Origin: a virus
Virus record (IMG/VR): IMGVR_UViG_3300009130_000011
Span: 1-64,000 of that record
Strand: one strand, 5' to 3'
Length of the DNA stretch: 64,000 nucleotides
Positions 13,693-37,818 of the stretch are shown piece after piece; positions within the stretch are counted from its first letter, which is position 1, and each line of letters opens with the position of its first letter. Both the position numbers and the translations under genes were made by a program. The notes under the pieces were generated by a model, which was not told the DNA's origin, ran no database searches, and saw only the letters and a list, made by a program, of their open reading frames with translations.

Positions 13693-14409
13693 CTAACTTG
13701 CCTTTCCTTCTAGCTTTGATATAATAAATTTCAATATCTCGCTTCTTAAAATATCTTCTTTCCCGAATTTAAAGGCATGTATTCCTCTGTCTTTACTCTC
13801 TGGATCATTAAATAAATCAAACATTGGGCCAAATCCGCTTTTGCCATTAATGTCGCTCTGCATAAAATCGCCGCAGATAAAAAGCTTACAATTCTCTCCG
13901 ACTCTTGTGAGCAATGTAGTAAGTTCCTTATATGTAAAGTTTTGCGCCTCGTCGGCTACAACGACTTTATCAGTCCAGCTTGCTCCTCTTAAATAGTTTA
14001 TAGGCATAGCTGAAATTCTACCGCTCTCTAAAAGTTCTTTTTTGCAAGTATTTGTTTTGGGGAGCATTTCGGTTAGCTTATCTTCTAGAGGCGAAATATA
14101 AGGATTAAACTTATCATCTATATCGCCGGGCAATGCGCCGAGACCTTTATCTGCACTTTCAATTACAGTTCTTATATACAGCAAATCTAATTCTTCTTTA
14201 GCGCTCAATAATCTTAGCGCCGCGTATACTGCCATATAAGTTTTCGTCGACCCTGCCGGCCCAGCAATAAACATTATATTTGTATCTTCATTAAACGCAA
14301 GCGAAATGAATTTTTTTTGCTTCTCTGTTAACTTCAGAGAATTGACGTGAATAGTTTGGGGGAGCTGAGGAATATGTATCTCAGAATGGGTGTTAGACTT
14401 TTTAGCCAT
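13693..14409 (-). CDS. phoH: PhoH-like ATPase
   Basis: 238 aa. Residues 27-235 are a PhoH-type P-loop ATPase: LTEKQKKFISLA lead-in, Walker A GPAGSTKT (50-57), Walker B VVVADEAQNF (about 148-157) and a downstream ICGDFMQ sensor segment. PhoH-like genes are common in phages; RNA-helicase or phosphate-stress roles are proposed but not settled. It has a late-type promoter and ends 14 bp from the convergent glycosyltransferase gene. Confidence 0.88.
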   Translation of the reverse strand: MAKKSNTHSEIHIPQLPQTIHVNSLKLTEKQKKFISLAFNEDTNIMFIAGPAGSTKTYMAVYAALRLLSAKEELDLLYIRTVIESADKGLGALPGDIDDKFNPYISPLEDKLTEMLPKTNTCKKELLESGRISAMPINYLRGASWTDKVVVADEAQNFTYKELTTLLTRVGENCKLFICGDFMQSDINGKSGFGPMFDLFNDPESKDRGIHAFKFGKEDILRSEILKFIISKLEGKAS

Positions 14410-29548: not shown

Positions 29549-29947
29549 TTATCGCTCGGGCCCATAGTCTACCAAGACTTTGTTGTGCGATAGTTTGACT
29601 GAGTGGGAGGCGTAGATTGGGTTCTCTGAGCTCTTGTATACGAAAGTCTCATACTTGTAGGGGTTGTATGTTACTTCAATGCCATTATCGTACGATGCGA
29701 TAGGGTCTTCATCGATGTAACCCTTGATTCCTGCGTGAACATTCTTACGCTTCTCCTCTAGAACTTTTTTCCTGCCGCGTGAGTTTACCTGAAACGCGCA
29801 ATCCCAAAGCTCCACTTCTGCGGTATGAGCTTTTACTAAACCGGCTTGTTTTATAGACCAACAGTCTCTATGTAAATTCTTATAAACAAAGACCTTTTTA
29901 TTATAATCAATTTTGTATCTAATATCGTTTTGATTTCTTAATTCCAT
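29549..29947 (-). CDS. Conserved phage protein (KNVHAGI family)
   Basis: 132 aa, basic. A KKVFVYKNLHRDCWSIKQAG opening and the LEEKRKNVHAGIKG segment match a phage family widespread in cyanophages and other marine myoviruses, function unknown; tandem beta strands follow (NPYKYETFVYKSS). It overlaps the upstream stop by 1 bp (TAATG). Confidence 0.75.
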   Translation of the reverse strand: MELRNQNDIRYKIDYNKKVFVYKNLHRDCWSIKQAGLVKAHTAEVELWDCAFQVNSRGRKKVLEEKRKNVHAGIKGYIDEDPIASYDNGIEVTYNPYKYETFVYKSSENPIYASHSVKLSHNKVLVDYGPER

Positions 29948-30198
29948 TACTCTACTCCTAATACTGATTTTAATTGGCGGAAGTTGTCCACTTGAATGAA
30001 GACTTCACGAACATAGTCGTCTGACTCGGATTCTACCTTCTCGATACGATCAGCAACATCGCAAGCTTGGCAGATCTCTCTCTGACGCATTCCCCACTTG
30101 ATAACCAATGGAGTGTTTGGAAAATACTTAACCAACTCTTTAAGTTGAATAGAATTAACAAACCCCCAACAATCTATAATTTCTTTTAATGTATTCAT
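29947..30198 (-). CDS. Small protein, unknown
   Basis: 83 aa; a helical N-terminus (ELVKYFPNTPLVIKWG), a single CxxC-like pair (EICQACDVADRIEKV) and an acidic C-terminal half. Leaderless promoter. First gene downstream of the non-coding RNA locus. Function unknown. Confidence 0.7.
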   Translation of the reverse strand: MNTLKEIIDCWGFVNSIQLKELVKYFPNTPLVIKWGMRQREICQACDVADRIEKVESESDDYVREVFIQVDNFRQLKSVLGVE

Positions 30199-30233
30199 GC
30201 TTTATATACTGACAGAATAACCCGCAAAGTCAA
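30199..30233 (-). promoter_or_regulatory. Leaderless promoter, CTGTCAG class
   Basis: Minus strand: TTGACT, 17-bp spacer ending CTGTC, AGTATA, 6-nt TAAAGC, then ATG at 30198. Confidence 0.72.
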
Positions 30234-30237
30234 CAAC

Positions 30238-30276
30238 AAAAAAACCCCCACCTGCGATAAATTAAACAGGTGAGGG
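30238..30276 (-). terminator. Terminator of the large non-coding RNA
   Basis: Stem CACCTG/CAGGTG extended by CCC/GGG across one mismatch, with a 12-nt loop, followed on the minus strand by a run of seven T. It ends transcription that comes from 30.66 kb. Confidence 0.85.
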
Positions 30277-30665
30277 TCGGAGGAGTGGGAAAGTGTTCCA
30301 CGCTTTTATGTAGTTACGGGAAAGGCGATGAAATAACCAGACTACGAAATCCGCTACAATACCTTTTACATACCCCATCAACGAAAGGAGGTCGATTTGG
30401 TCGTTTCAGTCCAAATGCAACCTATACTATGAGAATAAATAGATGTGGGGGAGGACTACTGAATACCTCCAACTTTTCGGCGTGAACATCAGTTCAATGG
30501 TGTACCTACTTCGAACTACAGACTAGACTTGGTATTTGTCTTTTGGCTCATCCGATTGGACTCTGCCATCCCCACCACAGGGGTCTGCATACCTTAACCC
30601 GCTCACGACAGGTTTATTCGAGTCACCCACAGGAAGGATTATAAGCCCTTCCAAAGTGTTTAAAA
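30277..30665 (-). ncRNA. Large structured non-coding RNA candidate
   Basis: About 390 nt with no credible coding frame, GC content above the flanks and a strong terminator at its minus-strand end. Stems on the minus strand, 5' to 3': GGAAGG/CCTTCC, AACC/GGTT, a closing GACTC/GAGTC pair, CCCC/GGGG, TGAAC/GTTCA with TGAT loop, GGAGG/CCTCC, ATTTGG/CCAAAT, GTGG/CCAC. Elements of RNase P RNA, tmRNA, SRP RNA or group I introns were not found. Large ornate phage RNAs such as GOLLD and ROOL occupy similar places, but identity is unproven. A promoter was not clearly located; the AT-rich stretch at 30661-30767 is the likely place. Confidence 0.6.
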
Positions 30666-30767
30666 TGTTAAAGATCAATTTATTTTATTTATTTGAGTTT
30701 GGTTCTCAATTTTGATTATTTATATATCATACTACATTATTTGATATTTGTCAAGTATTATTTTTTA

Positions 30768-30950
30768 TTATTTGCTTCCTCCGTTGATTGCGTCAAGTGC
30801 ATTATTTTTTTCTTGTAGTTTCCTTGCTTCCTGCTTTTGTATTTGAACCATCTTGTCGATGTGGCTCAAGTCCTCAACTTCTGTTTCAAGATACTCATCT
30901 ATTAATTGAGCAATTTTTTCTATTAAATCATTTTCTTGTGAATTATTCAT
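30768..30950 (-). CDS. Small acidic helical protein
   Basis: 60 aa, helical with a coiled-coil pattern (IEKIAQLIDEYLETEVEDLS). Ends about 100 bp before the RNA locus. Function unknown. Confidence 0.65.
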   Translation of the reverse strand: MNNSQENDLIEKIAQLIDEYLETEVEDLSHIDKMVQIQKQEARKLQEKNNALDAINGGSK

Positions 30951-34171: not shown

Positions 34172-35302
34172 TCAGTTTCTTACAACTAACTTATCGGTAA
34201 GAGAACCATTTCCCTCTAAATTAAACCCTAATTGATCTAAAATGTCTCCAACTTGTGAAGTCCCCAATCCTGCATCACGAACAACTTGTAGAGAACGAAC
34301 TTGCTTGACAGAGGGATTGATCCCTTGTTCATGCTTATTATCTACATAATTTCGTATAGCTAAGTGAGTCAAGCTGAAATCGTTTTCTGACTCCGTTTGA
34401 TCCATGTCGTAATCGTCATCCATTCCATCATCATCATAAAGATAATCACGACCTTCATCGTCATCGTCATCATAGTCATCGGAATCGTAATCATTATCTG
34501 ACCCATAGATAGGCTTATTAGCCTCGTAGACAGGTTTATTCATCTCTTTTCTATGTTCAGTAATGTCTTCGACTACCTTGTACTTGGAAACCCTCAATTT
34601 CTGAAAATCACAATCGGTAGGAACGCTAACTGCATCAGCAGGGTCAAACTCGACTACAAGCAATCTTCCACCTTCCCCTGCCCAAGAATCTGCATAGTCG
34701 TAAGAACCGACATGAAGTCCAAAAGAACAATGATTGTCTTTGTTGTCATCCACGCATCTGCGCTGAACTTCAATGGTTGCGCCAACTTCATTCAAAATTT
34801 GATGCCTTTCGTTTGTCTCTCCTTGAAGAACGATGGTATCTGCATTACCTGTGGTTGACCAATAATCAGATTGAACTCCCTTGTATCCCAAAACCTTGCC
34901 TTCGGGGGTATTCGGAAGCATCTTATAATTCATAAAAGAATAAAGTTCAGTTACTGAATTAGCGCTTGGATTGGCTTGCAAGCGAGAAATAAAATTAGTA
35001 AGAGGAGCAGAGTCTCTCATTCCTGCACGAAGCATTTCAAGCAACTTATTGACCACAACTCCATGCAAACGATGTCCCTTGTAGTAAACTACTTCGTCAC
35101 GAACTTCGATGTCGCCTTCAACAAAGTTTTCTACTGCCTTAACGATGTCAAGATATTGTGGAATATCCTCATATCTAGCGTCAAAGATCGCTTGCTTCAA
35201 ATTTTCAAAGTTTACATTGTCTTTGCGAATGGTGTAAGGCTTGCCTTCCCAAAAGACGCAGATTGAACTTTCGCTTAATGTATATGGTACTCTTTCACTC
35301 AT
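34172..35302 (-). CDS. rIIB: rIIB-like protein
   Basis: 376 aa. It lies directly downstream of the rIIA-like gene, as in T4-like phages, and has the size and layout of rIIB-like proteins of marine phages: an N-terminal beta domain (SSICVFWEGKPYTIRKDNVN), a central vRNA-binding-like region (LEMLRAGMRDSAPLTNFISR; SFMNYKMLPNTPEGKVLGYK), a very acidic Asp/Tyr linker (about 268-315) and a helical end. rIIA and rIIB counter host exclusion systems in T4; the mechanism is not known. A strong TTGACA / TATAGT promoter precedes it. Confidence 0.78.
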   Translation of the reverse strand: MSERVPYTLSESSICVFWEGKPYTIRKDNVNFENLKQAIFDARYEDIPQYLDIVKAVENFVEGDIEVRDEVVYYKGHRLHGVVVNKLLEMLRAGMRDSAPLTNFISRLQANPSANSVTELYSFMNYKMLPNTPEGKVLGYKGVQSDYWSTTGNADTIVLQGETNERHQILNEVGATIEVQRRCVDDNKDNHCSFGLHVGSYDYADSWAGEGGRLLVVEFDPADAVSVPTDCDFQKLRVSKYKVVEDITEHRKEMNKPVYEANKPIYGSDNDYDSDDYDDDDDEGRDYLYDDDGMDDDYDMDQTESENDFSLTHLAIRNYVDNKHEQGINPSVKQVRSLQVVRDAGLGTSQVGDILDQLGFNLEGNGSLTDKLVVRN

Positions 35303-35337
35303 AATTTTTTATCTCTATTTCTTAATGTTATTGCTAT

Positions 35338-35366
35338 ACTATACTAAAAATTTTTGATTCTGTCAA
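35338..35366 (-). promoter_or_regulatory. Sigma-70 promoter of rIIB-like gene
   Basis: Minus strand: TTGACA, 17-bp spacer, TATAGT, with about 35 nt of leader before the ATG. Not leaderless. Confidence 0.75.
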
Positions 35367-35475
35367 GTTTATTTTTGGTGATTTTAAATTTTAAAAAAGT
35401 TGTTTTCTCTAAGTATTCCTATAATTATGTGGATGTATATGAACTTGTCAACAAAAAATGTGAGGGAAGGGAAAA

Positions 35476-37818
35476 TTAATTCCCAACCCCCACTTTATCG
35501 CACAAATTTATGTAGTTAATCATGTTGTCTCCAAGGTTTCCCTCTTCCATACTTCTCCATCCGTAAACCCCTTCAGAGATATTGACGAGCAATGGGTATT
35601 GCTTTGAAATTTCTAAGCATTTATTATCGAATTCATTCACATCATAATCTGACTGAATATTTTCCTTAACCCATTCTTCGTCCTGTTGCTTCAAGAAGTT
35701 TACTAAACGATAAATAGTTGTAAGTTTCTGCTCTTCTGCGCCTTCCACGATCATCAACTCAACATCTTCCATGAGTTCAGACCAAATGTGATCGGAAGGC
35801 AAATTAGCTTGGACGCATTTTCTCCAATTAGGATTATCCAATAAAGAATGAAGTAAGCGATAATTTTCCATGTTGTACTGATTATCCTTGAATGCCATTG
35901 CTTTCTCAGATTTTGCAATTACATCCTTATGGTCTACTAGATAAGACTTTGCAAAAGATTTCTTGTAATCATCCCATGATTGCCAATGCGCTTTATTAAG
36001 TTTACTGCAATCTTTTTTGCGTACACCTAGTATCAAGGGTTGACTGAATGAATCGTCTGCTTCTTTCTGCATATTGAAAACTGCTCTGACATCTCTCTCG
36101 AAAGAATCCAATCCCATGATTGCCTCTTGACCTGCTTCTTTTTCATTGACAATCTTGTAATTAGAGATAGGAACATAAATTAGCGTATCCCCACCTTCTG
36201 ATGCAATGGATTCTAATTCATCAATTTTTTCTATGCAATTAAGCCAATAGTCTGCGTTCTTGTGTTTCCACTTGTTTTTGCCATCTGCATCAAATTCAAA
36301 AAGAGGAACATCTGCTCGACTCTCTCCCGAAAAACCTCTGCCTCTCGATTGCAACTTTGCCTTATCAATAGTAGAAAGGTCGATAATCCTACTCTTCTTG
36401 ATTTTGTTAAACTGCATACCATCAATATCATAGAGATGCTCTTCTCCTACTTCAGTAGCGTAAACGCAAGTAACTTTATCAAGATTTTCGTTCTGTTGGA
36501 ACAAGGTTCTAACTCTTTGAGCGTTCCCATGAGGATGCTTGTTGAAGCAACGACAAAGTTGAGTATTCTCATGCGGAAGAATTCTGTGGACTTTTGAAGA
36601 ACGAACTCTGTAACCATCAGTCGCATCTGCATCCGAATCCTTGTAGTAATCAGTAATAGTAATTTCGTCTTGAAACTTGTAATTCCTACTGATTTCTATT
36701 CCTTTGATCTTGATACCATCCCATTCAAAAGAATTTTGAAATAAGTTTTTAAGACCATAAGGAAGAGCATTAATTACTTGGGCATACTTGGCTTTTGCGT
36801 CCCACAAATCTTCTGCATCACCAAGTTTTTTCTTTGCAATCTTCTCAATATCCTTTTGGACATCCATCAAAACAGATAGAATTTCTTTTTGAGTTTGCTT
36901 ATTGTACTCCAAGGATTCTCTGCTATGATGCAATTTGAGTTGACCAATATCAAAACGAATGTAAAGATTTTCGTGTGAAGCTAACTCTTTCAAGTTTTTA
37001 GCTAGAGATTCATCTCCATCTGTAATTGATGAGAAATTAATTGCATTTGTGTTAAGCGGATAGTGAACTCTACCCATAACTGCATGAGATTCACTATGAC
37101 TTCTTCTCCAATACTCTCTTTCATCCTCAAGAATCCACCAAGATTTATCATCTGCTTCCATTACAACCTTGTATGAGTCAAAGAACTTTTCATCTTCTCC
37201 AACACCAATAAACTTAGGCATTTCTTCTTCAGAGAAAAAGCGAAAAAATTGCTTGCAAACATCTCTAAAAGTGTCTACATCTTCATCTGCAACTGCAACT
37301 TCTATCACTAAGCCACTTGGTTCATCAGATGGTTGAGGCTTTTGCAACTCAACAATCTTGGTATCATCATCGTCATTAACAAAAATATTGTATGTAGCTT
37401 TCGTACCATTGTGATAAGATACGCAAGTGAAGTTGTCACCATAAGAAAGAGGCGCAAACTTGCCAATGCCAAAAGCACCGATATAATTATTGCTATCCCT
37501 TTTCGTTGATTTTCCATACTTGGAGTAAAGACCGAAAATATCTTCCTTACTAAGTCCACCCCCGAAATCACGAACAACAAAATGGGGGTTGAGAGTTGAT
37601 GGAATAGTAACTTCAATCCTGCGACTTGAATTTGCTTCAAGGTTTGCGTCAAGCGCATTTGCAGTAATCTCACGAACTACTGCGAGAGGTGGATTGGAGT
37701 AATTGTTTCTCAAAAGAGATGCGACATAGCGCATATCCTCTGCATCAATCGTGCAATTTACTTGCTCGAAATCATGGGATTGAATTACTTGTTTAGATTT
37801 GTCTTGTGTTATAATCAT
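35476..37818 (-). CDS. rIIA: rIIA-like protein (GHKL ATPase)
   Basis: 780 aa. N-terminal GHKL ATPase fold: VREITANALDAN (48-59: Glu50, Asn54, Asp57 in the N box), VRDFGGGLSKEDIF (G1 box) and GAFGIGKFAPLSY (G2-type). The start MIITQDKSKQVI resembles T4 rIIA, and the order rIIA then rIIB is conserved. The rIIA/rIIB pair prevents abortive infection such as by the lambda Rex system in T4; the target here is unknown. Intergenic distance 173 bp to rIIB-like, with separate promoters. Confidence 0.88.
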   Translation of the reverse strand: MIITQDKSKQVIQSHDFEQVNCTIDAEDMRYVASLLRNNYSNPPLAVVREITANALDANLEANSSRRIEVTIPSTLNPHFVVRDFGGGLSKEDIFGLYSKYGKSTKRDSNNYIGAFGIGKFAPLSYGDNFTCVSYHNGTKATYNIFVNDDDDTKIVELQKPQPSDEPSGLVIEVAVADEDVDTFRDVCKQFFRFFSEEEMPKFIGVGEDEKFFDSYKVVMEADDKSWWILEDEREYWRRSHSESHAVMGRVHYPLNTNAINFSSITDGDESLAKNLKELASHENLYIRFDIGQLKLHHSRESLEYNKQTQKEILSVLMDVQKDIEKIAKKKLGDAEDLWDAKAKYAQVINALPYGLKNLFQNSFEWDGIKIKGIEISRNYKFQDEITITDYYKDSDADATDGYRVRSSKVHRILPHENTQLCRCFNKHPHGNAQRVRTLFQQNENLDKVTCVYATEVGEEHLYDIDGMQFNKIKKSRIIDLSTIDKAKLQSRGRGFSGESRADVPLFEFDADGKNKWKHKNADYWLNCIEKIDELESIASEGGDTLIYVPISNYKIVNEKEAGQEAIMGLDSFERDVRAVFNMQKEADDSFSQPLILGVRKKDCSKLNKAHWQSWDDYKKSFAKSYLVDHKDVIAKSEKAMAFKDNQYNMENYRLLHSLLDNPNWRKCVQANLPSDHIWSELMEDVELMIVEGAEEQKLTTIYRLVNFLKQQDEEWVKENIQSDYDVNEFDNKCLEISKQYPLLVNISEGVYGWRSMEEGNLGDNMINYINLCDKVGVGN

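Follow-up and report, generated by a model that had tools for sequence, protein, structure and literature searches.

What kind of RNA, if any, is encoded on the minus strand at positions 30238-30665 of the 64,000-nucleotide stretch of viral DNA analysed here (the window)? The initial annotation had proposed a large structured non-coding RNA of unknown type. Sequence analysis and comparison with relatives confirm a structured, non-coding RNA and split the question of its type in two. The Rfam covariance search that had been suggested as a check identifies the 5' half as the known family manA (RF01745), which is not recognisable by eye from sequence alone, and leaves the 3' half without a match; "unknown type" thus holds for a module of that half, here called element B, which is absent from Rfam 15. 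The boundaries first drawn were slightly short, as a promoter, a leader hairpin and a boxA lie upstream of them (30754-30666), and the predicted transcript, from promoter to terminator, runs on the minus strand from about 30719 to 30238, i.e., about 480 nt. Both predicted folds, the promoter-leader-boxA-RNA-terminator layout, the lack of coding and the presence of element B as a single copy at varied places are supported by the sequences compared. In the reading preferred here, to which a probability of roughly 0.7 can be given, the locus is a free-standing, probably trans-acting phage non-coding RNA, whose transcription would borrow Nus/boxA antitermination.

The absence of a gene was borne out by the relatives. 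No frame on the RNA strand is open throughout 29 aligned relatives, in which the median longest open run is 22-25 codons, and the lengths of both manA and element B are spread over all three classes modulo 3. A conserved protein-coding signal, named at the outset as the observation that would speak against an RNA, was looked for in these 29 relatives and not found, and protein coding was rejected. As also noted initially, the region is GC-richer than its flanks (44.9% vs 40.3% and 33.9% in the flanking 5 kb on either side). The folding energy of the region (z -1.54; 6 of 100 shuffles equally good) is weak evidence and was set aside as too weak to prove a structured RNA, which is established by comparison, namely by the covariance match of manA, the compensatory changes in manA and those in element B. 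The comparison drew on about 45 fetched loci in which manA is conserved ahead of the same small genes, reduced to 36 distinct sequences including that of the window. Nucleotide and protein searches returned no isolated relatives of the RNA or of the 83-aa protein encoded after it. Elsewhere in the window, rIIB-like and rIIA-like genes (34172-37818; PHROG matches) and a PhoH-like gene (13693-14409) can be found, and the terminase has no close isolate, its identity to those listed reaching about 27% at most.

Table 1. Features of the RNA unit and of the gene that follows it, in window coordinates.
Feature	Position	Strand	Evidence or remark
Promoter of the RNA unit, TTGACA-17-TATGAT	30726-30754	-	11/12 consensus match; relatives; 91% identical in L122
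Leader hairpin TTGAGAACCAAACTCAA, boxB-like position	30693-30709	-	stem with compensatory changes in relatives
boxA-like antitermination site GATCTTTAACA	30666-30676	-	one mismatch; exact form in several relatives
manA RNA (RF01745), complete, with 5' hairpin	30440-30652	-	cmscan 85.9 bits; conserved in clade
Variable spacer, long hairpin GGUUGCAUUUGG-ACUGAAACGA-CCAAAUCGACC	30370-30439	-	seen in the sequence; L122 is 72% identical
Element B, predicted pseudoknotted RNA	30291-30369	-	covariance model R1, 70.3 bits; alignment A1
Pyrimidine tract after element B	30282-30290	-	positions +4 to +6 after P4
Intrinsic terminator ACCCTCACCTG-loop-CAGGTGGGGGTTTTTTT	30237-30281	-	seen in the sequence; L122 retains stem and T-run with another loop
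Promoter-like TTGACT..TATATA of the next gene	30203-30233	-	sequence; ends 5 nt before start codon
83-aa gene, neighbour outside the RNA	29947-30198	-	same family in 29/36 relatives

Regarding the 5' half, the manA match covers the Rfam model from end to end (positions 1-192 of 192; E 1.7e-20) at a score well above the gathering threshold of 55.2 bits. The fold is kept in the clade, where 15 of 40 predicted pairs show compensatory changes among 29 members. No other Rfam family was detected in 30100-30800 at E values up to 1, apart from a fragment of RNase P, which was rejected at 14 bits on the opposite strand against a cut-off of 100; the initial judgement that the RNA is not RNase P, tmRNA, SRP RNA or a group I intron was right. 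The CCUCC stretches of the region were considered as an anti-Shine-Dalgarno decoy, a candidate that was dropped as those in manA are stem strands and those in the spacer are not conserved in L122, the closest relative. Between the window and L122, identity is 91-98% for promoter, leader, element B and terminator and 88% for manA; the flank upstream of the promoter is unrelated (53%). In L122, boxA and manA are also separated by an extra 207 nt, and the spacer between manA and element B has a 17-nt insertion. Variable hairpin domains inserted between boxA and manA can be found in L122 (5060-5270), L144 (4560-4610) and L288, and the motif TTTGGACTGAAA occurs in the L144 insertion as well as in the manA-B spacer of the window and L122.

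The start of the unit is conserved as well. Promoters matching at least 10 of 12 consensus positions are found upstream of boxA in 35 of the 36 relatives, and at least 11 of 12 in 26 (10.6% and 1.7%, respectively, in shuffled sequence), mostly with a 17-base spacer and 71-115 nt ahead of the boxA-like sequence. The stem of the leader hairpin varies by compensatory changes (TTGAG/CTCAA, CTGAG/CTCAG, ATGAG/CTCAT, TCGAG/CTCGA). In about one third of the relatives its loop is complementary to the bases before boxA (GGAT/ATCC, GAGGC/GCCTC, GGGGT/ACCCC, GGGC/GCCC), which allows a possible H-type pseudoknot; predicted covarying pseudoknots of this type with an A-rich third loop were noted in L130, L143, L148, L215 and L232, and they may constitute a new kind of antitermination leader. 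The boxA-like sequence itself lies near the 5' end of an untranslated predicted transcript, downstream of a promoter. That of the window, GATCTTTAACA, has one mismatch to GYTCTTTAANA, the consensus of gamma-proteobacteria (PMC5725501), and several relatives carry the exact boxA GTTCTTTAATA. Because the shuffle control is uninformative at the cut-off used, 4 of 12 positions being wildcards, the argument for boxA rests on position and exclusivity. The hairpin-boxA leader is present in nearly all clade members, and a search of 2.9 million viral contigs with the leader pattern gave 23 matches, every one of them ahead of manA (21 with manA by homology and 2 at a contig end with the first bases of manA). 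In the 102,754-base genome of this phage, the full 15-nt form of boxA and the leader hairpin each occur once. A leader found exclusively with manA suggests that the phage might use the rRNA antitermination of the cell for its own non-coding RNA, with boxA as a putative recruitment site for Nus factors.

At the other end, the strong terminator seen initially was recovered, and its different loop in the closest relative leaves the stem intact. In nearly all relatives, manA is followed within about 10-90 nt by a GC-rich hairpin and a T run, and then by TTGACA..TATAGT/CATACT, found at the equivalent place in most of them, with a start codon a few bases past the -10 box. By a strict scan, 30 of the 36 relatives have the terminator (1% in shuffled sequence); several were missed, including the window, L122 and L217, where it lies further downstream or has a less regular tail. 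The 83-aa gene would be leaderless because of the short distance from its promoter-like sequence to the start codon. Its product has no PHROG match, and genes of other families follow the manA unit in the remaining 7 of 36 relatives.

The predicted layout resembles that of a ribosomal-type non-coding RNA gene, not that of a leader. A strong sigma70-type promoter would fire at the RNA unit, and Nus factors of the host would be loaded at the hairpin and rRNA-type boxA with which the transcript begins, keeping the untranslated RNA from being cut short by Rho. The manA domain and the element B pseudoknot would fold independently of each other, and the intrinsic terminator would free a molecule of about 480 nt, the 83-aa gene being transcribed separately from its own leaderless promoter. 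We infer that this RNA accumulates and acts in trans, as a structured RNA or an RNA-protein particle binding a host or phage factor, and that it is probably not a switch for the neighbouring gene. Three findings weigh against this stand-alone reading: the 83-aa family so often follows the RNA that a conditional terminator may act on that gene, the boxA of the window, judged by sequence, departs by one base from the gamma-proteobacterial consensus, and manA in cyanophage-type contigs often lies shortly before a start codon (see below).

Element B is a predicted pseudoknot of about 75-90 nt; about 75 nt of the 3' half of the transcript recur in related phages away from manA, at 0.6-3 kb from it and on the same strand. 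Its helices are P1 (nGGY/RCCn), the P2 hairpin (CGNNN/NNNUG), the P3 pseudoknot (UGURR/YYACA) and the P4 hairpin, whose near-invariant loop UAACYACAUAAAAG contains the 3' side of P3. In an alignment of 53 sequences, 98.5% of the pairing cells pair, and both sides are changed in 191 cells; shuffled alignments gave 53.5 +/- 6.8 such cells, and sliding the partner gave no more than 34. P3 is paired in all sequences, with compensatory changes, its variable pairs being GC in 43 and AU in 10 sequences, and GC in 37, AU in 9 and GU in 7. The strand of element B is fixed by the G-U pairs in P1, P2 and P3. Positions +4 to +6 after P4 are C or T in 93-98% of 46 non-redundant loci, against a background of about 46%. 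The core pattern was found in 78 stretches among 2.9 million viral contigs and in 3 among 84,980 cellular genomes; L316 and L337 were left out as chance matches by eye, in which the helices are not formed. Neither the window region nor four other loci bearing element B gave an Rfam 15 match for it at E up to 1. At the gathering threshold, another ten loci, the majority with element B, matched only manA, and blastn with two members did not find it in phage isolates. On this comparative evidence, element B is a well-supported, putatively pseudoknotted RNA family absent from Rfam 15; a description of it was not found in the open-access literature in a non-exhaustive search. L336 (PBIO01000012.1), a phage-like contig from a diverged relative, is binned in a Halobacteriovorax MAG, a possible hint at a host, and has element B, the terminator and the 83-aa and 132-aa genes in the order of the window.

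Element B lies 3' of manA in the window, L122 and L336. In L288 it immediately precedes the promoter of manA, and in L217 it is missing from the manA transcript and found 2.2 kb upstream. Since its position varies and this genome has a single copy, element B need not serve one fixed neighbour. Judged from its placement, it is a putative movable module, which could be a small RNA in its own right or an element of 3' ends and intercistronic gaps. A first alternative, compatible with a stand-alone transcript and coming close to an even chance, is that manA has its own job and that element B is a 3'-end or intercistronic element placed before the terminator, where it would protect the 3' end, direct processing or terminate conditionally. 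A credible gene precedes element B in 48 loci, and in 45 of these the element begins within 20 nt of the stop codon, mostly at 3-18 nt (TAA in 44 of 48). The genes ahead of it, read from the sequences, belong to at least ten unrelated kinds, among them genes for proteins resembling HNH endonucleases and SSB. A terminator comes after element B in L296, L262 and L307, a tract of pyrimidines or U is its general sequel, and manA transcripts without element B are the majority in the clade. However, in several other loci the next gene begins 7-19 nt after element B, which is not always a 3' end, and the near-invariant P4 loop exceeds what a plain end-protecting hairpin needs. Mobility as an HNH homing-endonuclease cassette was considered and is not supported, because the approximately 28 HNH loci share similar sequence both upstream and downstream and represent one phage group. 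In this group (L259-L333), the region after element B seems to lack genes, contains short hairpins that are conserved (CCTCGGAAACGAGG..CCATG), and may hold another RNA.

That the locus is instead a cis-regulatory leader or riboswitch, in which manA (with element B) would sense a metabolite or factor and set terminator read-through into the 83-aa gene, is considered unlikely. The idea has a history, as manA was first put forward as a candidate riboswitch of 5' UTRs (Weinberg 2010, PMC2864571) and carries the label "Cis-reg" in Rfam (Rfam 14, PMC7779021), and the arrangement of an aptamer, a terminator and a neighbour conserved in 29 of 36 relatives is that of a riboswitch. Moreover, among 86 manA copies from other, mostly cyanophage-like contigs, 45 have a start codon less than 60 nt downstream, as expected of a leader. 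Yet in 29 of the same 86 loci a terminator separates manA from the next gene, and in 5 a tRNA gene comes next; in the cyanophage-like contigs L002-L121, tRNA genes or terminators follow manA in about 40% of the classified cases. In the clade itself, manA does not occupy its supposed place as part of a regulated gene's 5' UTR, as a terminator and a separate promoter precede the next gene in most of the 36 relatives; this placement is a functional hypothesis and lies outside the sequence definition of RF01745. At the locus, the full-length terminator stands alone and no alternative antiterminator pairing was seen, the 83-aa gene would have a separate leaderless promoter, its family is replaced in 7 of 36 relatives, and riboswitches do not characteristically have a boxA leader.

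Less probable still is a role of element B in self-cleavage, as a ribozyme, or in translation, as an IRES-like element or a readthrough stimulator: a compact pseudoknot with invariant unpaired bases, shortly past the stop codons of unrelated genes and in some copies before a U tract and an AUG without Shine-Dalgarno sequence, would suit such roles, but no Rfam ribozyme matched even at E up to 1, the copy in the window abuts no gene on either side, and lengths that vary over all frames make readthrough unlikely as a general role, so that this role was rejected.

Returning to the stand-alone RNA, manA is a known family, and its boxA-led, free-standing form is a new one that carries a new RNA family; no description of this form was found in the open-access literature, in a search that was not exhaustive. 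A clade in which manA is a discrete promoter-boxA-terminator unit argues that manA can work as a free RNA and offers a clean place for testing that role. For a riboswitch candidate dating from 2010, no ligand was found in the literature searched. It may be that manA is usable in both forms, as a free RNA and as a leader, and that the "Cis-reg" label is too narrow. As a tentative generalisation, with the odds somewhat against it, manA could at heart be a free-standing, trans-acting RNA with rRNA-like expression in this clade, fusible to element B as a pseudoknotted module that moves between phage transcripts.

Regarding known systems, the initial annotation had named GOLLD and ROOL (PMC12286853) as the closest class, a suggestion that did not hold. 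Like the RNA of the window, these are phage-encoded, large and structured. However, their Rfam models are unmatched over the whole window at the gathering threshold and in 30100-30800 at E up to 1, their folds are different, and their size (about 660 to more than 800 nt, the class being set above about 600 nt) exceeds the approximately 480 nt found here; they are often near tRNA islands, whereas no such island adjoins this RNA, the two tRNA genes lying 25-29 kb away. The cyanophage S-CREM1 likewise has manA in its genome among other structured RNAs, adjoining wcaG and abiF (PMC9964418), although it is an unrelated phage and manA is annotated there as cis-regulatory. As compared with manA in Rfam, the copy of the window, in a marine phage setting, spans the full length of the family and scores above its curated cut-off; the family is listed as cis-regulatory, whereas here manA forms a unit that runs from promoter to terminator, is headed by a boxA leader and is joined to a second RNA module. 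With the rRNA leader, in which boxB and boxA assemble a Nus complex (PMC5725501), the unit has in common that a hairpin and, after it, a boxA-like sequence stand close to the start of an RNA that is not translated. It differs in that the RNA is encoded by a phage and is not rRNA, that its dependence on Nus factors is putative, and that a hairpin of this type can turn into an H-type pseudoknot in some relatives.
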